A stretch of DNA of 56,949 bases from an uncultured cyanobacterium. Lineage in GTDB: Bacteria; Cyanobacteriota; Cyanobacteriia; Cyanobacteriales; FACHB-T130. The notes under the pieces are model-generated. The model made no database searches. It had not been told where the DNA came from and saw only the letters and a program-made list of their open reading frames with translations. The stretch spans positions 1-56,949 of the forward strand of contig CAKZHE010000062.1 in the NCBI GenBank assembly GCA_936920195.1, read 5' to 3'. Positions within the stretch are counted from its first letter, which is position 1; every line of letters starts with the position of its first letter. Position numbers and translations under genes: made by a program. Positions 43,955 through 54,595 of this stretch are shown here, one piece after another.

Positions 43955-44028
43955 AGATCCAATATCAGTTTTATAAAGCTATGCTCATTAAAGATCCAAT
44001 ATCGTTTATGTAAAGCTATGCTCATTAA
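43955..44028. repeat. two tandem 37-bp direct repeats
   Basis: AGATCCAATATC...GCTATGCTCATTAA occurs at 43955-43991 and 43992-44028 with a few differences in the middle. Two copies without spacers do not make a CRISPR array. It could be a binding-site duplication upstream of the kinase gene. Confidence 0.7.
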
Positions 44029-44051
44029 AAATTGTTTGCTGACAATATTCG

Positions 44052-44179: not shown

Positions 44180-47100
44180 ATGAATTTCATCATACCCGGT
44201 TATAACATCACTGAAAAAATCCATGAAGGCCAGCAAACCATTATTTACCGTGCGCTCAAAGAGTTATATCAAACAAAAGTAATTCTTAAGGCTACTAAAT
44301 CTAGCTATCCCACCTTGCAAGAAATTACTCGGTTGCGCCATGAGTATAATATTTTGCAATCTCTTCATCTAGAAGGTATTACCCAGATCCTTGGCCTAGA
44401 AAATGTCAATAACGGCTTGGCTTTGGTTTCAGAAGATTTTGAAGGGATTTCCTTGAAATCTTTAATTAATAAACAAAAGCTATCAATTAAATTCATGCTT
44501 TCCATTGCTATCCAGTTAGCAGAAATTCTCTCGCAACTCCACAAACAGCACGTAATCCACAAAGATATTAAACCTCATAATATTCTCGTCAATGAAGAAA
44601 CTAGCGAAGTTAACCTGATTGACTTTAGTATTGCTTCTCGTCTTTCTAAAGAAACACCTTCCATTACCAATCCTGATTTACTGGAAGGAACTTTAGCTTA
44701 TATGTCTCCAGAGCAAACTGGGCGGATGAATCGGGCAATTGACTATCGCACCGACTTGTATTCCCTAGGCGCGACTTTGTATGAAGTGTTTACAGGCAAA
44801 GTCCCCTTTCTAGCGGCTGATGCCATGGAATTAGTTCACAGTCATATTGCCAAAACTCCAGAACCACCTCATCTTAATAATCCCGAAATCCCCCCAACCG
44901 TATCAGCCATTATTCTGAAATTATTATCCAAGACTGCCGAAGAGAGATATCAAAGTTCTCTAGGATTAAAAGCTGACTTAGAACGCTGTTATCAGCAACT
45001 CACTACCAAAGGCAAAATAGAATCATTTACCCCCGGCAAACTGGATAAATCTGGACAATTTTTAATTCCCCAAAAACTCTATGGGAGGGAAGCCGAAGTT
45101 GCCCAGTTAATGTCTGCTTTTGAGCGAGTTAGTTTGGGGCAGACAGAAATGGTCTTAGTTTCGGGATATTCTGGGATTGGGAAATCCTCCTTAGTCAATG
45201 AAGTTCATAAACCAATTGTCCGACAACGAGGTTACTTTATTGCGGGGAAATTTGACCAATTCAAACGGAATATTCCCTACGCGGCTTTGATTCAAGCTTT
45301 TCAAGACTTGATTCAGCAGTTGCTCACGGAAAAATCAGAAAGTTTGGAAAACTGGAAATCTAAGTTATTAACCGCCCTAGGGGAAAATGGACAAATCATT
45401 ATTGATGTCATTCCAGAATTAGAGCGGATTATTGGCAAGCAACCTGCCGTATCAGAGGCGGGAGCAGCGGAAAAACAAAATCGCTTTAACCGGGTGTTTC
45501 AGCAATTTATCCAGGTGTTTGCCCAACAATCCCATCCCCTAGTTTTATTCCTAGATGACTTGCAATGGGCGGATAATACTTCTTTGAAGTTAATTCAACT
45601 CCTGACAACGGATGCCGATAGTAAATATCTGCTGTTAATTGGGGCTTATCGGGATAATGAAGTGGATGCCGCCCATCCTTTAACCAGTACAATTGAGAAG
45701 ATTCAAGCAGACAATGGTCAGATTAATAATATTGTCCTCAAGCAACTGAGTTTGACAAGTGTTTCAGCTTTAATTGCTGATACTCTAGCAGTAGAAACAG
45801 AGTATGATGACAAGCAAGTAAGTAGCCAAGTTGCCGATAGAATCCAACCCCTAGCGGAGTTGCTTTATAATAAAACGCAGGGCAATCCATTTTTCTTAAC
45901 TCAATTACTGCAAACTCTCTATAGTGAAGAATTATTGACTTTTGATTTTAGGCAAGAATGCTGGCAATGGGATATCCAGCAAATTCTCTCCCAAGAGATA
46001 ACTGATTATGGGATTGTGGAGTTGATTGCTAGAAATATTCAGAAACTGCCGGAAGACACCCAGAAAACTTTAAAATTAGCGGCTTGTATTGGCAATAGAT
46101 TTAACTTGTATGTGCTGGCAGTGGCTTCGGAAAAATCTGCTTCGGAAACCGCAACTTTCCTATGGGCAGCGCTGCAAGCTGGATTAGTGTTGCCATTATC
46201 TGAATCCTATAAAATTCCCTTGGTTGGGACTGTAGATTGGGAACAGAATAATTATTCATTGCAAATTGGTTACAAATTCTTGCACGATAGGGTACAGCAA
46301 GCCGCTTATTCATTAATACCAGAAGACGAAAAAAAAGCAACGCACTTAAAGATTGGGCAGTTGGTGTTAGCAAACACACCAGAGCCTGATATTGAGGAAA
46401 ATGTTTTTGATATTGTTAACCAGTTAAATATTGGTCGAGAATTTATCCAATCTCAGGTTGAAAAGAATAAATTAGCAGAACTTAACCTAATAGCAGGGAA
46501 GAAGGCCAAGGATTCAACTGCTTATGATGCAGCTACTAGGTATTTGAATTCGAGCTTGGAATTACTTGATAAAAATAGTTGGGAAACCCAGTATCAGTTA
46601 ACTCTAGATATTCACGTAGAAGCGGTAGGAGCAGAATATCTTAATACTAACTTTGAACGAGCTAACCAGTTGTCTGAGTTGGTTTTTGAACGGGCTAAAA
46701 GTCTTATAGAAAAAATCCCAGTATATGAAACCAAAATTCAGTTTTATATGGTTCAAAACCAGATGCCAGCAGTAATAAAAACTGTTATGCCTTTGTTAGA
46801 AACTCTGGGATTTCCCCTCCCTAAAAAAGCAAATAAATTAGTAGTATTAATGGAACTTCTCGGAACAAAAATAAAGCTAGGCAAAAAGCAGATTGAGGAA
46901 TTAGTTGCTTTGCCAGCGATGACTGATCCTTATAGACTAGCAACAATGAGGCTGTTAAATGCTGTATTTGCAGCTGCTGGGGCAACAAATCCGGAACTAG
47001 TACCAGTAGTGGCAATGAGGATGATAAATTTCAGCCTGAAATATGGTAATTGCCCAGAAACATCTGTTGGCTATGGTCTGTATGGGTTAATTTTGTGTGC

Positions 47101-49615
47101 CGGAATGGGAGATATTAAATCTGGCTATCAATTTGGTCAACTAGCAGTAAAGCTAATCGACAAATTTGATTTCAAACAGCTTAAACCCAAAGTATATTTG
47201 CTGTTTTGGGCTTCTATTGCTCATTGGAAACAACCTGCCAAAAGTATAGTTGAACCTTCCTTAGAAATAATTAAGGCTTCCACAGAGGTTGGCGATCTAG
47301 AGTATTCTGCATATGCAGCATTTACTTATTGCGTAATTTTGTTTTTAAGTGGTATTAGTCTTGAGATTTCATGTCAAAACTATAGTAAATATATTAGTAT
47401 AATGGCAACACAAAAACAACAGTATCATGTTCAGTTAAACGGCGTATGGAGACAACTTATTTTCAATCTTCTTAACCAAAATATTAATCAAGATATTTTG
47501 CTAAATCACAACGAAAATGCCAGCACCAAATTTTCAAATTCAACATTTCTAACTGATATTGATAACGGAACTTTAATGTTTAATACTAGTTTTACTCAGT
47601 GTATTTTTGCTTATTTAATGAAAAATTATACTTTGGCTGTTGAAACAGCTAAAATCGCAGAAAAACATAGTGTAAGTGTGCTTGGTATTTTTCCTGTTGC
47701 AGTTCACAATTTTTACTATTCTCTCTCTCTTCTTGCTGTTTATAATAATATTTTTCACGAAGAAAAAAAACAATGTCTGAAGAAAGTTATTGCTAATCAA
47801 AAAACAATGAATAATTGGGCAAATCATTCTTGTATTAATTTTCGGCATAAATATGACTTAGTAGAGGCAGAAAAAGCGCGAGTTTTGGGGCAAGACTATC
47901 AAGCAATCACATATTACGAACAAGCAATAGCCGGAGCCAATAAAGAAGGATATATCCATGAAGAAGCATTAGCCTGCGAACTAGCTGCCGAGTTTCATTT
48001 TTCTCGAAATAGAGCTATAATTGCTAAAGCTTATTTATTAAAATCCTACTATGCTTATATCCGCTGGGGTGCTTTAGCTAAGGTCAAAGATTTAGAAAAA
48101 CGGTATCCAGAAATATTTTCAGAAGTATTGAAAAGGGAAGCATCTACAATTGACTTCAGCGCAACTACCAGTGCCAGTTTTACCTTAACTTCTACTACGG
48201 GGACAACTGGCAATCACTCAGCAATGCTAGATATGCTTTCGGTAATGAAAGCATCCCAGGCGATATCTGGAGAACTGGTTTTAGAAAAGCTGTTTTCTAG
48301 CCTAATGACAATCTTGATGGAAAATGCTGGAGCGAGAATCGGCTTTTTATTGTTGAAACAAGCCGATAAATTAGTACCAGTAGCTTCTGGAAAGCTAGAG
48401 AACAATCAAGTCGCTTTACTGCCTTTGGAGCATTTATTATCTCCTGAAGATTTACCTTTTTCAGCAATCAACTATGTGGAAAGAACTTTAGAACCAGTTA
48501 TCTTAACCAATGCTAGTCAGGAAGGGATTTTTACTCACGATCCCTATATTGTTAAGCATCAACCAAAATCTGTCTTGGGAATGCCAATTGTTTATCAAGC
48601 TAAGTTAATTGGCATCCTTTACTTGGAGAATAATCTAGCTACTGGAGCATTTACTAAGCAAAGGCTAGAAGTATTGAAACTCTTGACTTCCCAGGCTGCT
48701 ATTTCTCTGGAAAATGCCACTCTGTACCATGAATTGCAGGAGTTAGCCGCCAAGGAAAGGGAACGAGCAGTGGAGCTAGGAGAATCTCTGAATAAGCTGC
48801 AACAAACGCAGGCGCAATTGGTGCAAACGGAGAAAATATCTAGCTTGGGACAACTCGTAGCTGGGGTAGCCCATGAAGTTAATAATCCGGTGGGTTTCAT
48901 TTCTGGTAATCTGCATCATGCTACGGAATATGTAAATGCCTTAACTAATCATATCAGTCTCTATCAAGAAAACTTTCCCAATCCTCCCGATCAAATTAAG
49001 GAAGATGCCGAAGATATTGAAATAGAATACTTGATTGAAGATTTGCCTCAAATGCTATCTTCAATGAAATTGGGTATTGACCGCATCCGCGATATTATGC
49101 AGTCCCTCCGTAATTTTTCCCGGGTGGATACGGCTGATAAAAAACCTGCGGATATCCATGCGGGGATAGATAGCACGCTGATGATTCTTCAGCATCGCTT
49201 GAAACCCAAAGGCGAGTTAGAAGAGATTGCGATTATCAAAGAGTATGGCGATTTGCCAGAAATAGCCTGTTATAGTGGTTCGCTGAATCAAGTGTTTATG
49301 AATATCATTGCTAATAGTATTGATGCTATGGAAGGGGAAAGAGCTAGAAGCCCAAAGCATATTACCATTAGGACTGAACAAATTGATGATGATAAGGTCG
49401 TGATTCGGATTAAGGATGATGGACCCGGAATGACTGAGGAGGTGCGAGAGCGTTTATTTGATGCTTTCTTTACTACTAAGCCAGAAGGGAAAGGCACGGG
49501 TTTAGGGCTTTCAATTTCATATCAAATTGTGGTGGAAAAACATGGAGGTAAGTTGCAGTGTGTTTCCGCGCCCGGTCAAGGGGCTGAGTTTATCATTGAA
49601 ATTCCTATTGATTAA
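44180..49615 (+). CDS. Ser/Thr kinase + AAA ATPase + GAF + histidine kinase signalling protein
   Basis: The 1811-residue protein is of the HstK type known from filamentous cyanobacteria. Residues about 8-270 form a PknB-like kinase: VILKATKS carries the Lys, catalytic loop HKDIKPHN, DFS in place of DFG, SPE. Residues about 300-560 are an AAA_16-type ATPase (Walker A GYSGIGKSS, Walker B LVLFLDDLQWAD). A long helical region follows, then GAF (about 1350-1520) and a histidine kinase with H-box VAGVAHEVNNPVGF (His about 1565), N-box IIANSIDAM, KDDGPGM and GTGLGLSISYQI. There is no membrane helix or receiver domain. GAGGA lies before the ATG. It neighbours the P450 and terpene synthase genes and could control them. 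Confidence 0.93.
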   Translation: MNFIIPGYNITEKIHEGQQTIIYRALKELYQTKVILKATKSSYPTLQEITRLRHEYNILQSLHLEGITQILGLENVNNGLALVSEDFEGISLKSLINKQKLSIKFMLSIAIQLAEILSQLHKQHVIHKDIKPHNILVNEETSEVNLIDFSIASRLSKETPSITNPDLLEGTLAYMSPEQTGRMNRAIDYRTDLYSLGATLYEVFTGKVPFLAADAMELVHSHIAKTPEPPHLNNPEIPPTVSAIILKLLSKTAEERYQSSLGLKADLERCYQQLTTKGKIESFTPGKLDKSGQFLIPQKLYGREAEVAQLMSAFERVSLGQTEMVLVSGYSGIGKSSLVNEVHKPIVRQRGYFIAGKFDQFKRNIPYAALIQAFQDLIQQLLTEKSESLENWKSKLLTALGENGQIIIDVIPELERIIGKQPAVSEAGAAEKQNRFNRVFQQFIQVFAQQSHPLVLFLDDLQWADNTSLKLIQLLTTDADSKYLLLIGAYRDNEVDAAHPLTSTIEKIQADNGQINNIVLKQLSLTSVSALIADTLAVETEYDDKQVSSQVADRIQPLAELLYNKTQGNPFFLTQLLQTLYSEELLTFDFRQECWQWDIQQILSQEITDYGIVELIARNIQKLPEDTQKTLKLAACIGNRFNLYVLAVASEKSASETATFLWAALQAGLVLPLSESYKIPLVGTVDWEQNNYSLQIGYKFLHDRVQQAAYSLIPEDEKKATHLKIGQLVLANTPEPDIEENVFDIVNQLNIGREFIQSQVEKNKLAELNLIAGKKAKDSTAYDAATRYLNSSLELLDKNSWETQYQLTLDIHVEAVGAEYLNTNFERANQLSELVFERAKSLIEKIPVYETKIQFYMVQNQMPAVIKTVMPLLETLGFPLPKKANKLVVLMELLGTKIKLGKKQIEELVALPAMTDPYRLATMRLLNAVFAAAGATNPELVPVVAMRMINFSLKYGNCPETSVGYGLYGLILCAGMGDIKSGYQFGQLAVKLIDKFDFKQLKPKVYLLFWASIAHWKQPAKSIVEPSLEIIKASTEVGDLEYSAYAAFTYCVILFLSGISLEISCQNYSKYISIMATQKQQYHVQLNGVWRQLIFNLLNQNINQDILLNHNENASTKFSNSTFLTDIDNGTLMFNTSFTQCIFAYLMKNYTLAVETAKIAEKHSVSVLGIFPVAVHNFYYSLSLLAVYNNIFHEEKKQCLKKVIANQKTMNNWANHSCINFRHKYDLVEAEKARVLGQDYQAITYYEQAIAGANKEGYIHEEALACELAAEFHFSRNRAIIAKAYLLKSYYAYIRWGALAKVKDLEKRYPEIFSEVLKREASTIDFSATTSASFTLTSTTGTTGNHSAMLDMLSVMKASQAISGELVLEKLFSSLMTILMENAGARIGFLLLKQADKLVPVASGKLENNQVALLPLEHLLSPEDLPFSAINYVERTLEPVILTNASQEGIFTHDPYIVKHQPKSVLGMPIVYQAKLIGILYLENNLATGAFTKQRLEVLKLLTSQAAISLENATLYHELQELAAKERERAVELGESLNKLQQTQAQLVQTEKISSLGQLVAGVAHEVNNPVGFISGNLHHATEYVNALTNHISLYQENFPNPPDQIKEDAEDIEIEYLIEDLPQMLSSMKLGIDRIRDIMQSLRNFSRVDTADKKPADIHAGIDSTLMILQHRLKPKGELEEIAIIKEYGDLPEIACYSGSLNQVFMNIIANSIDAMEGERARSPKHITIRTEQIDDDKVVIRIKDDGPGMTEEVRERLFDAFFTTKPEGKGTGLGLSISYQIVVEKHGGKLQCVSAPGQGAEFIIEIPID

Positions 49616-49664
49616 GGAATAGCAAAGAATTTATTTGATCGATTCACTGCTAATTGATTAATTC

Positions 49665-49700
49665 TAATGTAGAGATATCTCGTCGAACTTCTCTACATTA
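49665..49700. terminator. hairpin between the convergent kinase and P450 genes
   Basis: TAATGTAGAG (49665-49674) pairs perfectly with CTCTACATTA (49691-49700), 16-nt loop. It lies between two converging genes and could stop transcription from both sides. Confidence 0.65.
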
Positions 49701-49737
49701 TAACGATTTCAGAAAATCAGGAGAAATTCACCTCAAG

Positions 49738-50967
49738 CTAGAAAACTAGCCACAAATATTTCAACCCTCGTGCTATCGCACTTGGCTTTCCTTTATATCC
49801 CCCAGTTCTTAGATGAAATTCCGGGAAACGTTGTAGTATGCTCTTAATAGAGATTTTTATTTGTAGTCTCGCTAGTGCAGCGCCTAAACACAAGTGAATG
49901 CCAGTACCAAAACCAAAATGCTGATTATTTGGACGAGTAATATTAAGCGATTCTGACTCCGAGAACTGATCTGGGTCGTGGTTTGCCGATGCCAGCCAAG
50001 CATAAATATCCTGTCCAGCTTTAATTAAATTTCCTTGCAACTCAAAATCATTTTTCGCAAGGCGGTGGATAAACTGGACAGGGGCTTCATATCGCAATGT
50101 TTCTTCAACTGCAGTCTCTACTAGAGAGAGATTTTCTCTCAAAAGTTTTAGCTGTTCTGGATATTTCAGGAGTAGAAAAATGCTATTTCCTATTGCATTG
50201 ACTGTTGTCTCGTATCCAGCATTGAGTAATAGCCATATCATTCCCTGCAACTCTTCGTCACTAAGGTAATATCCCTCTTCTTGTGCCATTATTAAGTCGC
50301 TTAATAAGTCTTTTCTTAAATGCTGGCGGTGTTGCAAAATCTGTTCTTGGATGTAATTTAAGAATTCAGTCCGAGACTGATACATAAGCTCTAGAGAGAC
50401 AGGAGAGCCGCCAAGAAATTCGACTTCATTTTTGACCCAGTTGTTGATTGTCTCATAGTCTTTACGAGGAAACCCGATTAGATCAGAAAGTACATTTACG
50501 GGGAGTATTTCAGCAAAATTCTCAATAAATTCTATCTCCTGAGTATTTTGCCAGTTATCCAAGAGTGAATTAACATTTTCTTGAATTTGTAAGCCCATTC
50601 CTTCTATAATTTGGGTAGTAAATGTTTTACTAACTAGCGAACGGAGGCGTGTGTGTTTTGGAGGATCGCTAAATAGTATTGATTTTTGAGTAATACTAAA
50701 CAATTGAGATATGATTTCCCGCGCCTCTGCTGGGTAGCGTTCTAATTCAAGGGGAGGCATCTCTGAAGAAATTTGGCGATCGCGCAATATTGATTGAATA
50801 TCTGCATATTTAAAGATATGCCAAGCTCCCACTCCACTACTAAAGCCTGTATGAAATTTGGAATCCCATACTACGGGGCTTTCAGCACGCAATTTGGCAA
50901 AAGTTGGGTAGGGATTTTCCAAAAATTCAGGGCTTAAATAGTCTAAGTTCAGTTCTGTTGTGACCAT
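49738..50967 (-). CDS. cytochrome P450 (bacterial soluble type)
   Basis: The 409-residue protein has all P450 landmarks: DPPKHTRLRSLVSKTFT (about residues 101-117), the I-helix oxygen site AGYETT (250-255), the K-helix ExxR as ETLR (289-292) and the heme loop FGFGTGIHLCLG with Cys about 360. Size and the FGxGxHxCLG pattern place it with soluble bacterial CYPs that take electrons from ferredoxin. It is divergent from the terpene synthase across a 468-bp region, so oxidation of the terpene product is the natural hypothesis. Nostoc terpene miniclusters also pair a synthase with a P450. The substrate is inferred from context only. Confidence 0.94.
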   Translation of the reverse strand: MVTTELNLDYLSPEFLENPYPTFAKLRAESPVVWDSKFHTGFSSGVGAWHIFKYADIQSILRDRQISSEMPPLELERYPAEAREIISQLFSITQKSILFSDPPKHTRLRSLVSKTFTTQIIEGMGLQIQENVNSLLDNWQNTQEIEFIENFAEILPVNVLSDLIGFPRKDYETINNWVKNEVEFLGGSPVSLELMYQSRTEFLNYIQEQILQHRQHLRKDLLSDLIMAQEEGYYLSDEELQGMIWLLLNAGYETTVNAIGNSIFLLLKYPEQLKLLRENLSLVETAVEETLRYEAPVQFIHRLAKNDFELQGNLIKAGQDIYAWLASANHDPDQFSESESLNITRPNNQHFGFGTGIHLCLGAALARLQIKISIKSILQRFPEFHLRTGGYKGKPSAIARGLKYLWLVF

Positions 50968-51435
50968 AGTCTTTGCCTCGGTAGATATGCTTTTAAGCTT
51001 ACCAAGTCCAAATCTTAGTCTTTCCTATGCGATCGTATAATGTTACAAATTTTATGATTAGCCCAAGTCACCCTTGCAGACTTTGTATAAGTCCTGCCTT
51101 TTTTGCTCTTGAGAGAGGACGACTGGATATTGGCTAGGGCGATCGCCTTTCGCAGAGCTTCTTTTGTCATAATTCTCAGCGATCGCCCTTAGACTGAAGT
51201 GAGTGGGAGGGTATATTTTTTATTGACAATCTGTATCTTCTCTGGTATAGCTTTACTTCTTTGCTTTCTGAGTATTTCTGCTGATGATTTCGCTATTATG
51301 CCTAAAATTTACAGTTTGTGGGGAAAACTTTAACGAAACTTTATCTTAAATGGGGTGTTGCTCATTGTCATACCAAGAAATCGTGATATATTGACTATGG
51401 TCTTTTTCCTAAGTACATTTACGGACATTGAAGAT
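50968..51435. promoter_or_regulatory. divergent promoter region of the P450 and terpene synthase
   Basis: A good sigma-70-type promoter reads toward the terpene synthase: TTGACA (51223-51228), 17-bp spacer, TATAGC (51246-51251). That would give a start near 51258 and a leader of about 180 nt. Two GCGATCGC-containing stretches lie at 51140-51190. Near-repeats TTTAACGAAAC/TTTATC lie around 51330-51345. I see no clear promoter for the P450 on the minus strand and no gene inside. Confidence 0.6.
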
Positions 51436-52737
51436 ATGCGAGTACAAACGAACGCTTCTGCCACCGACTGCAATCTTTTAGCCAATAAGTCAGATGCTAC
51501 GGCTGCCAGTCAAGTTAAAAATAAGTTAAATTCAACCCCTGCCACTTCCATTAAAAATACATTGAATTCAACTGCTACCACCTCCGTTAAAAATAAGTTA
51601 AATTCTACTGTTACTACTCCCGCTAACAACAAGTTAAATAGACCTGTTTCCACTCCTGTTAATAACAAATCAACTTCGTTTGATCGCGATCTCTTTACTA
51701 ATACATCAGCCAAGTTAAACACCGCTCAGATTAAAAATCATCGTCTATTTTATCCTCTATCGTGGAAACCAACTCTTAATCCCTATGCTTCAACCATGAT
51801 TCAAGAAATGGCTGATTGGCTAACGGAATTAGAAATTCTTAAGGATCGGGAAACAGTTAAAATCTTACAAGAAGAAAGAGCAGATTTATACGGAGGCTAT
51901 CCATTTCCTTTTGCTAGTTTTAAGAAACTGAAGGGACTCACTAAGTTTCTCGCACTATGGATGGTATTTGATGACGTAGCAATTGAAAGTTCCAATGACT
52001 ATTGGGAAACCAATAACGTTTCCATTGAGGACTATATAGAAGCTATGCGTGGTGGTAGCTTGTCCGAAAATACTGATGTTTTTCTACGAGCATGGTGGGA
52101 AGTTGGCCAATGTTTTGCAGAAAGTATGAGTCAAAAATGGCTCGATCGCATGGCTAATAACTTTGCCCACTGGTTACGAGAAACAATTAGAGAACGTGAA
52201 ACTTACACCGCGCTAAAAAATGCTGGTAAACTGCCAGATTTAAATACATATTTTGGTATTCGCTGTACTTCAGTTGGTGTTTTAGAAACACTTCATCTAA
52301 TTGAATATGCTGGGGATTTCGAGTTACCTGATGAAGTCCATAATCACCCAATAATCAAGGCATTGCATGAATTAGGCACAAAATTAATCTTCTTAAGCAA
52401 TGACATTGTTGGTCTTGAAAAAGATCTGCGTTCAGGTTGGCCTAATACTGTTACTATCCTCCAACAAGAATATGGCCTAACGTTGTCTGATGCGCTAACC
52501 CAAGCTGTTGAATTGCATAATGATTGCGTTTTTAGTTTTATCGATGCAGAAAGCAAAATTCCTTCCTTTGGTAGAGAAATAGATCCTTTTGTCCGTGGTT
52601 ATGTAGAAGGTATGCGTTTTGTAGTTCGAGGCATAGCACAATATCAATACGATGCAGAACGCTACCAGTGGAAGCGCGAATTAGCACCTGGTAAAGCACC
52701 ATTTGCTGTATCTCTGGCTTCTTTCGTAGATAAATAA
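51436..52737 (+). CDS. class I terpene synthase (probable sesquiterpene type) with repetitive N-terminus
   Basis: Class I terpene synthases ionise prenyl diphosphates with three Mg ions. From the ATG at 51436 (433 residues) the first 110 residues are a low-complexity Asn/Lys/Thr/Ser region. The catalytic domain then starts with FYPLSWKPTLNPYA. The Asp-rich motif is FDDVAIE (D179, D180, E184), a DDxxxE form. The second metal motif is NDIVGLEKD (N322, D323), where the usual Ser is Gly and the final Glu is Asp. The pyrophosphate-sensing Arg (R276, in YFGIRC) lies 46 residues upstream of N322, and a late ERYQW matches the RY pair. It is not a two-domain geosmin synthase. GTG 51355 and ATG 51397 are alternative starts. 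The product cannot be predicted. Confidence 0.88.
   Translation: MRVQTNASATDCNLLANKSDATAASQVKNKLNSTPATSIKNTLNSTATTSVKNKLNSTVTTPANNKLNRPVSTPVNNKSTSFDRDLFTNTSAKLNTAQIKNHRLFYPLSWKPTLNPYASTMIQEMADWLTELEILKDRETVKILQEERADLYGGYPFPFASFKKLKGLTKFLALWMVFDDVAIESSNDYWETNNVSIEDYIEAMRGGSLSENTDVFLRAWWEVGQCFAESMSQKWLDRMANNFAHWLRETIRERETYTALKNAGKLPDLNTYFGIRCTSVGVLETLHLIEYAGDFELPDEVHNHPIIKALHELGTKLIFLSNDIVGLEKDLRSGWPNTVTILQQEYGLTLSDALTQAVELHNDCVFSFIDAESKIPSFGREIDPFVRGYVEGMRFVVRGIAQYQYDAERYQWKRELAPGKAPFAVSLASFVDK
51517..51660 (+). repeat. four 36-bp tandem repeats inside the terpene synthase gene
   Basis: Each 12-residue unit reads approximately KNKLNSTxTTSV: KNKLNSTPATSI, KNTLNSTATTSV, KNKLNSTVTTPA, NNKLNRPVSTPV. 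DNA is less conserved in the last unit. The region precedes the catalytic domain, is probably disordered and may vary in copy number between strains. Confidence 0.85.
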
Positions 52738-52761
52738 AATTCATTCTCAATATTAAATACT

Positions 52762-52799
52762 AAAAAAATCTGCAATTCGATCGAATTGCAGATTTTTTT
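52762..52799. terminator. perfect 19-bp palindromic terminator after the terpene synthase
   Basis: AAAAAAATCTGCAATTCGA (52762-52780) is followed at once by its reverse complement (52781-52799), ending in seven T. It lies 25 bp past the stop codon and is a strong rho-independent terminator usable from either side. Confidence 0.92.
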
Positions 52800-52986
52800 A
52801 GTTTAGATCTGTGATATCTACTGATGCAATTCCGAATTAATATCTTCAATTTATTAGCGTGGCTGGAAATTCCGCGCCGTGCTAGAGAACGCGAACGCCT
52901 GGTAAAATAACGCTAGACTCTCCCCCTAAGTCCGTGAGAACCGACACAATTTTTTATCAGAAAAATGGGTCTAAAACCCCGTCCTT

Positions 52987-53244
52987 CTAGGACGGCTTTT
53001 CTTGTTCGCGAATGTACTGTTTAAGTACCTCTATGGGCGCACCTCCGACTGAGCTAACAAAATAACTAGGACTCCAGAGGGCATCTTTCCCTAATGGCTT
53101 ACGGTATCCACTTTGACCGTATCGACGACTAGATACTCCTTTTAGTGCGTTCACCATCTGAGAGACAGAAAACTTAGGCGGGTATTCAATTAGCGTGTGA
53201 ATATGGTCAACTTCACCGTTAAATTCAAGAATCTGAAAATCCAT
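52987..53244 (-). pseudogene. N-terminally truncated TnpA (IS200/IS605 Y1 transposase)
   Basis: The 85 residues match the C-terminal two thirds of TnpA. The metal-binding HUH-type DHIHTLIEY is present, as are LWSPSYFVSSVGGAPIEVL and the catalytic Tyr in KQYIREQ. An in-frame TAA lies directly before the ATG, so the first 45 or so residues (normally a strand-rich start with KYRRK) are lost. It is divergent from the adjacent tnpB, the standard layout for this type. A left-end hairpin CCGTCCT-TCT-AGGACGG lies at 52980-52996, overlapping its 3' end. Probably unable to transpose. Confidence 0.85.
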
Positions 53245-53269: not shown

Positions 53270-54100
53270 ATGAAAGCGAGATATCAATACCGTTTCTATC
53301 CGACAGAGCAACAACGACAGAGCCTAGCTCAGTTGTTTGGTTGCGTTCGGGTGGTTTGGAATGATGCCCTAGCTTTCAGTAAGTCCAGTAAATACCCTGG
53401 GTACAAAGCTCTATCCAAATCTCTTACTTTGTCTAAAAAGACAATTGAAAGAGAGTGGCTAAACAACGTCTCGTCTGTCCCCTTGCAGCAATCTCTAATG
53501 TCTGATGGCTCCAAGGCTCAAAGCCCTGACTACTCAAAGGCAGACCGCAAAATTCGCCAGCTTCAGAAGAAATTGGCGCGTCAACAGAAAGGCTCAAATC
53601 GCCGACATAAAACTCGTCTCCAAATAGCCAAGCGGCACAATCGAATCGGCGATACCCGCAAAGACTTTTTGCATAAGCTATCTACCAAAGTTGTTAGGGA
53701 AAACCAAACTATCATTTTGGAAGATTTAAACGTCTCTGGCTTGGTTAAAAATCGTCGGCTTGCTAGGACAATTAGTCTCCAAGGATGGAGAGAATTTAGG
53801 ACGCTATGCGAAGCTAAGTCGCAGAAGTTTGGGAGAGTTTTTCGGGTAGTAAGTCGATGGGAGCCAACCAGTCAAATTTGTTCTGAGTGTGGCTATAAAT
53901 GGGGCAAACTCGATTTAAAAGTGCGGTCGGTTAGATGTTTAAACTGCGGTACTGAACACGACCGAGACGAAAATGCGGCTAGGAATATAGAAAAAGTCGG
54001 GATAGGGCATTGCCACGACTCTAAACGGACGCAGAGACAGAGTAAGACTACCTCGGTAGCATCAGTCAGTGAAGCGTCAAGTGTTTCCCCGTGGCTTTAG
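53270..54100 (+). pseudogene. internally deleted TnpB lacking RuvC-I
   Basis: The open frame (276 residues) starts like a normal TnpB (YQYRFYPTEQQRQSLAQLFG, CVRVVWNDAL). At residues 76/77 it jumps from VSSVPLQQSL to MSDGSKAQSP, which in intact proteins lies just after RuvC-I GIDLG. About 100 residues, including the first catalytic Asp, are missing in frame. RuvC-II (ILEDLNVSG, E151), the zinc ribbon (C204, C207, C223, C226) and RuvC-III (DRDENAARN, D233) remain. Nuclease activity is not expected. The element's right end, TATGTCAA, is at 54110-54117. Confidence 0.88.
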
Positions 54101-54117: not shown

Positions 54118-54595
54118 CAACTCTTTCAAACCTTCCCCAGCTTATTATTTGAACTAATTGGACAATCTCCAGAACTCTCCCAGAAATATGAATTTTCGTC
54201 ACGGGAAATCAAAGAACTGGCGCGGCGCTTTGATGGCATATTTTTACCACTGCCAGAAGCCATAGACCAACGGCTCTATTTTGTCGAAGTCCAGTTTCAA
54301 CAATCTTAGTCGCCAGGAGATAGAAACTATGTTTGGACTAAGCGATCTCAAGCAAAGCAAGGTTTACCAAGAAGCTAAGGAAGAAGGCAAGCTGGAAGGC
54401 AAGCTGGAAGGCAAGCTGGAAGGCAAACTGGAAGGCAAACTGGAAGGCAAACTGGAAGGCAAACTGGAAGGCAAACTGGAAGGCAAGCTTGAAACAGTTC
54501 CTTTGTTATTACAGTTAGGATTAACTGTAGAACAAATTGCCGAACGCTTAGACTTGAAGTTAGAGACAGTCAAAAAAGCCGCTCAACAACAATAA
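54118..54595 (+). pseudogene. broken DUF2887 (Rpn-like putative nuclease) gene
   Basis: From about 54124 the frame reads LFQTFPSLLFELIGQSPELS, RREIxxLxRRFDGIFLP-like text and RLYFVEVQFQQS before a TAG. This is the N-terminal half of DUF2887 proteins, which belong to the Rpn/transposase-like PD-(D/E)XK group. The sequence then jumps, in another frame, to the C-terminal part (NLSRQEIETMFGLSDLKQSK, a GKLE repeat, and LGLTVEQIAERL). The start codon region is cut by the IS element at 54117, and roughly 120-150 residues are deleted internally. So the gene has at least two lesions and is dead. Confidence 0.85.
54383..54490 (+). repeat. nine 12-bp repeats (GAAGGCAAGCTG) encoding EGKL units
   Basis: Nine head-to-tail copies, with a single G/A variation (AAGCTG or AAACTG) in the middle group. 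Such a run is prone to slippage and is typical of the C-terminal linker of DUF2887 proteins. The long antisense frame across it is an artefact. Confidence 0.9.

Follow-up and report, generated by a model that had tools for sequence, protein, structure and literature searches.

A cyanobacterial terpene synthase, cytochrome P450 and dual kinase locus: an apparent look-alike of the Nostoc-type terpene cluster

Three consecutive genes on contig C62 (CAKZHE010000062.1) of the 5.7-Mb draft genome of an uncultured cyanobacterium of the order Cyanobacteriales encode a dual kinase of the HstK type, a cytochrome P450 and a class I terpene synthase. The same kinds of neighbour are known from Nostoc, which raises the question whether the stretch analyzed here (the whole contig of 56,949 nucleotides, hereafter the window) holds a relative of the Nostoc locus and whether its three genes belong together. 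The kinase and P450 genes are convergent, tail to tail, with a gap of 122 bp, and the synthase gene is divergent from the P450 gene, with 468 bp between the two after correction of the synthase start; synthase and kinase share a strand and are thus not convergent with each other (Table 1). Each of the three enzyme classes is ordinary, but their combination is uncommon. The locus appears to be a look-alike of the Nostoc-type locus, a likeness that is apt in outline but, as judged from the sequences, not by descent. The reading tentatively favored, at somewhat below even probability, is that local DNA movement recently brought together a lineage-specific pair of synthase and P450 next to one member of an expanded kinase family.

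Open reading frames (ORFs), domains and motifs agreed with the classes assigned in an earlier note on this DNA, namely, a terpene synthase, a P450 and an HstK-like kinase. The synthase matched PF19086 (Pfam, E 2.4e-31) and solved sesquiterpene synthases with E values down to 1.9e-24. A class I alpha-helical fold was predicted for its body by AlphaFold (predicted local distance difference test, pLDDT, 82.6), and the 50 PDB matches listed for the model all bear the name of a terpene synthase or of Cop4, with 1-epi-cubenol and T-muurolol synthases at the top, at 18 to 24% identity. The motifs read from the sequences were DDVAIE, NDIVGLEKD and a final RY in the synthase, FGFGTGIHLCLG and EETLR in the P450, and HKDIKPHN with an intact-looking H-box in the kinase, each labeled by what we take to be its consensus. 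The invariant D, R, N-D and R-Y columns of a 14-row alignment were retained by the synthase. Like the bacterial class I synthases of 10-epi-cubebol, 1-epi-cubenol and T-muurolol, it has the fold (as predicted), the aspartate-rich motif and the R...ND...RY positions, but it differs from them by this low identity, by a Gly and an Asp in the NSE motif and by a low-complexity N-terminal tail. The P450 matched PF00067 and has the length and the heme and ExxR motifs of PksS and BioI, soluble bacterial P450s that were its best PDB matches, but unlike them it adjoins a terpene synthase. In the kinase, Pkinase and AAA_16 domains are followed by a long middle part, GAF and HisKA/HATPase (Pfam, HisKA just below the cut-off). 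A Ser/Thr kinase, GAF and a histidine kinase in one chain is the arrangement of HstK (cbSTKIII) kinases as defined in the available text of PMC2176072, and it is shared with the dual kinases Alr2258, Alr0709 and Alr0710.

In Nostoc, the germacrene A synthase gene alr4685 adjoins alr4686, encoding CYP110C1 (PMC3411444, available text). Because all4687 is listed as a dual Ser/Thr-His kinase in the available part of PMC2176072, the Nostoc "two-component protein" is of the HstK type. An 8.2-kb locus with a synthase, a P450 and a "hybrid two-component" protein is reported from Fischerella in the accessible portion of PMC4558948. When named genomes were scanned with synthases of the Nostoc type, 54 loci were obtained, 53 of them with a synthase ORF above 250 amino acids (aa) (L260 excluded). 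All three genes were present in 45 of the 53, only the kinase in three, only the P450 in three (one near a contig end) and neither in two. Synthase and P450 were neighbors in 48/53 loci. An HstK-type kinase was likewise found in 48/53, and in 48/48 one sat downstream on the opposite strand; in the three kinase-only loci, the kinase stayed by the synthase and no cluster-type P450 was found. The cluster P450s are probably CYP110-type, by analogy with alr4686 as covered in the available texts. Among 34 synthase loci read in other genomes of the order, 17 had synthase, P450 and HstK-type kinase, four synthase and kinase, and two synthase and P450; one had a synthase fragment beside kinase pieces, and ten had none of these neighbors (one with a broken synthase). 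The precedent invoked in the earlier note is thus stronger than claimed there, since 45/53 loci carry all three genes with the kinase convergent with the P450. At one locus (L110, 9319-12044), synthase and P450 were divergent like those of the window, and no kinase of the HstK type was present in the stretch read.

The descent of the three window genes was compared with these loci. In the best synthase tree, from which ORFs below 280 aa (fragments in L091, L117 and L118) were excluded, the window synthase lay outside the Nostoc-type clade, and the sister of that clade was another synthase of the same genome, on contig C258 (support 100/98). Joining the window synthase to the clade was not rejected (approximately unbiased test, p-AU 0.122); its branch is long, so its placing is unsure. 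The C258 synthase (L016, G000:C258, 11021-12184) has a C-terminal tail with repeated KSDKNLL, has no P450 or HstK-type gene beside it, and a kinase on its contig starts about 17 kb downstream. The window P450 was 23 to 29% identical over 187 to 362 residues to 20 P450s of other synthase loci, and none above 29% was found in the 34 synthase loci of other genomes. It is divergent from the synthase instead of lying directly downstream on the synthase strand, so that the differences in P450 type and synthase orientation noted earlier both hold; the kinase is convergent with the P450, as in Nostoc-type loci. The kinase tree contained 85 proteins, after seven of 92 ORFs of at least 1200 aa had been dropped for having no kinase match or no long AAA match. 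The 21 cluster kinases of Nostoc-type terpene loci came together in a single clade (support 91). The window kinase fell outside it, grouped with three paralogues of its own genome (support 100), a group of four that sets it apart from Alr2258, Alr0709 and Alr0710. A single clade of the window kinase and the 21 cluster kinases was rejected (p-AU 3e-70).

That all three genes are orthologous to those of the Nostoc locus is therefore rejected for the kinase by the tree and for the P450 by identity and orientation, while orthology of the synthase is not strictly rejected. In sum, the window shares with alr4685-alr4686-all4687 and the Fischerella counterparts the three neighbors and the tail-to-tail kinase and P450, and differs in the divergent synthase, the distant 409-aa P450 and the clade of the kinase. 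No description of a window-like locus was found in the literature searched, a search beyond whose reach most subscription journals lay. The comparison sets a conserved Nostocaceae circuit of synthase, P450 and its own clade of kinases apart from a look-alike, and it cautions that nearness of a kinase gene is not enough to infer kinase control. At the terpene loci L082-L109 and L207-L259, the 21 kinases placed in the tree have a clade of their own and, in three named loci, a kinase stays where no cluster-type P450 was found, which makes it a candidate for a dedicated kinase.

HstK-type kinase and AAA parts occur together in 24 proteins of the genome, one of them the window kinase, and 22 of the 24 also have a GAF/histidine-kinase match. 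With this copy number, the grouping with its own paralogues and the rejected membership in the cluster clade, the window kinase is incidental under the favored reading. A signaling role for the terpene pathway is not supported by descent, and kinase control is hypothetical. The three genes could instead form a functional locus assembled independently of Nostoc, in which an HstK-type kinase was recruited again to a synthase/P450 pair and would control it by phosphorelay through a GAF or AAA ligand. This is rather unlikely in our estimate: a kinase of the same architecture is tied to the synthase in the Nostoc-type loci, even in the three lacking a detected cluster-type P450, and the window kinase and P450 are likewise tail to tail, but the kinase falls in a different clade and has its close paralogues within this genome, synthase and kinase share a strand instead of converging, and no co-conservation was seen among 388 genomes of the order. 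We give similarly low credence to the broader proposal that HstK-type kinases of different clades were recruited at least twice to cyanobacterial synthase/P450 loci, tail to tail with the P450, the window being the second independent origin. If that were true, the kinase would be a dedicated switch for making an oxidized sesquiterpenoid; a functional look-alike would amount to the circuit rebuilt in nature from different components, and a test of whether HstK-type kinases gate terpenoid output.

The 388 genomes were searched with the synthase and the P450, with at most four candidates per genome scored. Among the scored hits, both genes were present in 13 other genomes and adjacent in none, so that co-conservation, on which the earlier note had made the link of the three genes depend, was not seen, the kinase also lying outside the cluster clade. 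Under random placement, a synthase would start within 468 bp of any of the genome's three P450s with a probability of about 0.05% per synthase and 0.25% over five synthase loci, and one of the five would lie this near an HstK-type kinase with a probability of about 7 to 9% (24 to 30 copies), owing to the copy number of the kinase. These figures speak for the pairing of synthase and P450 as meaningful and do not decide about the kinase.

For the start of the synthase gene, GTG 51355 (460 aa) had been proposed at first. That start is probably wrong, and judged from the sequence, ATG 51436 (433 aa) is the most likely one. Contig C173 of this genome carries a paralogous fragment that corresponds to the beginning of the gene, with 64/80 bases agreeing over 51320-51399 and 158/255 over the tail at 51436-51690, and ATG 51436 is conserved in it. 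A promoter-like TTGTCA-N16-TATATT (window form, 10/12 consensus bases) lies within the best-kept part of this alignment, inside the coding region first proposed. ATG 51436 is preferred because this stretch covers the proposed GTG start and because the ATG is kept in the C173 copy. A promoter scan of the window gave 10 sites, against 10.2 in shuffled sequences; since this total does not exceed the shuffles, the case for the promoter is made from conservation between the two copies. A coding leader upstream of ATG 51436 (the GTG frame, or a short ORF that both copies show on inspection by eye) was set aside, since the differences between the copies had no coding pattern by eye and the promoter fits. 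Nor is the upstream block a repeated element, its C173 copy being the only significant one in a search of the genome.

Downstream of the synthase lie 75 bp of a radical-SAM (S-adenosylmethionine) gene, identical in 16/16 and 57/59 bases to the gene on C173; the two parts are contiguous in the window and 182 bp apart in the C173 gene, just upstream of which stands the synthase-tail remnant. The radical-SAM gene was present in 5/5 same-family genomes (80 to 82%), with no synthase trace in the 1.5 kb upstream of it in any of the five. Because remnants occur at both loci and no such trace was found in the relatives, it appears that DNA of the synthase, together with the beginning of the radical-SAM gene, was copied or moved from one of the two places (window and C173) to the other, with the synthase body lost on C173. 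A single duplication event does not fit the unequal identities between window 51320-52894 and L015 10211-11124 (97% for the longer radical-SAM piece, 62% for the synthase tail, 80% for the leader). The present gene may, on one reading, be a composite in which promoter and tail are native to the window and the body arrived later from C173. The UbiA-Ppx pair was also present in 5/5 same-family genomes, with no kinase of this type, P450 or synthase around it in the 15 to 20 kb read, and these five genomes gave no synthase hit at 1e-10 and no P450 hit at 1e-40. The absence of the block at UbiA-Ppx in all five, together with the radical-SAM and IS200/IS605 remnants (a truncated TnpA and a short TnpB) behind the synthase, argues for recent assembly.

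Recent insertion would also suit three accidental neighbors, a synthase acting alone, a P450 with another substrate (polyketide or fatty acyl) and a kinase engaged elsewhere, which we consider unlikely but to be taken seriously. The adjoining insertion-sequence remnants and the absence of the block in the relatives agree with it, as do the apparent movement of the synthase with part of the radical-SAM gene and its seemingly own, conserved predicted promoter. The nearest kin of the P450 were a tandem pair on contig C181 of the same genome (62% identity). For seven of the nine best outside relatives (36 to 41% identity; all but those of G200 and G079), the surroundings were read, and one of these, other than the four with acyl-activating neighbors described below, has a squalene-hopene cyclase gene at a distance of about 3.2 kb, which favors a terpenoid link. 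Against accidental neighborhood stand this relative, the adjacency of a synthase to one of only three P450s, improbable under random placement, the synthase/P450 neighbors of 48/53 Nostoc-type loci, and the pair at L110, a locus of the order, which is divergent as in the window.

Several observations weigh against the lineage-specific pair beside an incidental kinase. No synthase lies beside the C181 paralogues, and neither a class I synthase nor an HstK-type kinase was found near the P450 relatives (0/7 in the stretches read). An AMP-binding/phosphopantetheine gene adjoins four of the seven, with a ketosynthase gene on the other side in two of the four by Pfam and in a third by eye; such acyl-activating surroundings speak for another P450 substrate. 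A P450 within 122 bp of an HstK-type gene is expected by chance at about 0.3% (three P450s), which favors a meaningful three-gene locus, and all these chance figures are rough, assume random placement and ignore the clustering of accessory genes. In the NSE motif NDIVGLEKD, two metal-ligand positions depart from what we take to be the consensus, Ser being replaced by Gly and Glu by Asp, and the two changes together could weaken catalysis; the Gly also occurs in the homologues L083 and L084 of the 14-row alignment.

Under the favored reading of a synthase/P450 pair, the synthase would ionize a prenyl diphosphate, with farnesyl diphosphate the most likely substrate, and cyclize it to a sesquiterpene or a sesquiterpenol, which the divergent P450 may oxidize with photosynthetic ferredoxin as a possible electron source. 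Sesquiterpene formation is likely and P450 tailoring plausible, while the kinase link is unproven.

The synthase is distant from the homologues found and could make an uncommon product. In the 388 genomes, identity to homologues was at most 30% over most of the length, a scan of named genomes with the single protein gave no close relatives, and 35 plasmid records were all below 60% identity (best among the 25 listed, 28%). An apparently closer relative in genome G020 (47% over 79 and 44% over 73 residues) proved to be fragments of broken L083-type genes, and a whole L083-type gene was 27% identical to the window synthase. At L118 of that genome (9535-12791), an L083-type synthase gene is split into two parts separated by about 2.3 kb, and L009 holds another part; the 383-aa ORF between the two resembles by eye the reverse transcriptase of a group II intron. 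At L017 (G000:C227, 315-2978), a highly divergent gene resembling class I synthases stands directly behind a 528-aa protein without a Pfam match (E 0.001) or an NCBIfam match (E 1e-10).

The N-terminal tail of about 90 to 100 residues, about two thirds of them N/T/S/K/A, includes 36-bp tandem repeats at 51513-51639 and is also found in the C173 remnant. By ORF length (286 to 387 aa), none of the single-domain homologues compared has a comparable tail; the longest of them, the C258 synthase, is extended at its C-terminus instead. Since the genome has two family 2B encapsulin shells, the tail was considered as a targeting tail of an unlinked cargo. These SrpI-like shells with a cNMP-binding domain each have as neighbor the gene of a terpene cyclase with two domains, laid out like geosmin synthase, and cargos of the 2-methylisoborneol type are described in the available text of PMC8346489 with a disordered first 100 to 120 residues and one cyclase domain, the layout of the window synthase with its low-complexity first 90 to 100 residues. 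The same text gives a GPTGLGT-type motif as the mark of family 2B cargo. The window synthase lacks a GPTGLGT- or LGTS-type motif, which the two-domain cyclases carry as GLGTS-like stretches (by eye), and has no adjacent shell gene in its operon, both matches in the genome lying on contig C98 and none elsewhere; the best encapsulin-cargo profile scored 43 bits on the window protein against a cut-off of 400. We hold an encapsulin cargo to be very improbable. Both cyclase/shell pairs are at L021 (G000:C98, 449-8588), with the GLGTS-like stretches, as seen by eye, between the domains and at the C-terminus.

Table 1. Features of the kinase, P450 and synthase locus and its downstream flank, in window positions
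Feature	Position	Strand	Evidence
HstK-type dual kinase (cbSTKIII), 1811 aa	44180..49615	+	ORF, Pfam domains, kinase tree
Soluble bacterial-type cytochrome P450, 409 aa	49738..50967	-	ORF, PF00067
Probable synthase promoter TTGTCA-N16-TATATT, TG before -10	51365..51392	+	Consensus match and conservation in C173 paralogue (predicted)
Class I terpene synthase, 433 aa, corrected start	51436..52737	+	ORF, PF19086, predicted fold
Low-complexity tail at the synthase N-terminus, residues 1-85 of about 90-100	51436..51690	+	Composition, C173 remnant
Palindrome, 20-bp stem, terminator-like, 3' of synthase	52759..52802		Scan, which assigns - strand
Radical-SAM gene 5'-part remnant	52820..52894	+	Match to C173 gene
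IS200 TnpA, truncated (Y1_Tnp profile positions 40-121 of 121)	52987..53241	-	Profile match
TnpB, IS200/IS605-type element, 276 aa (family models 360-389 positions)	53270..54100	+	Profile match

The count of terminator-like palindromes in the window was not above that in shuffled sequences. Beyond the TnpB remnant, a short ORF at 54281-54595 is weakly similar to the Rpn family and contains a 12-bp repeat, coding for GKLE, in about nine copies, and two copies of a 37-bp repeat lie directly upstream of the kinase gene (43955-44029).

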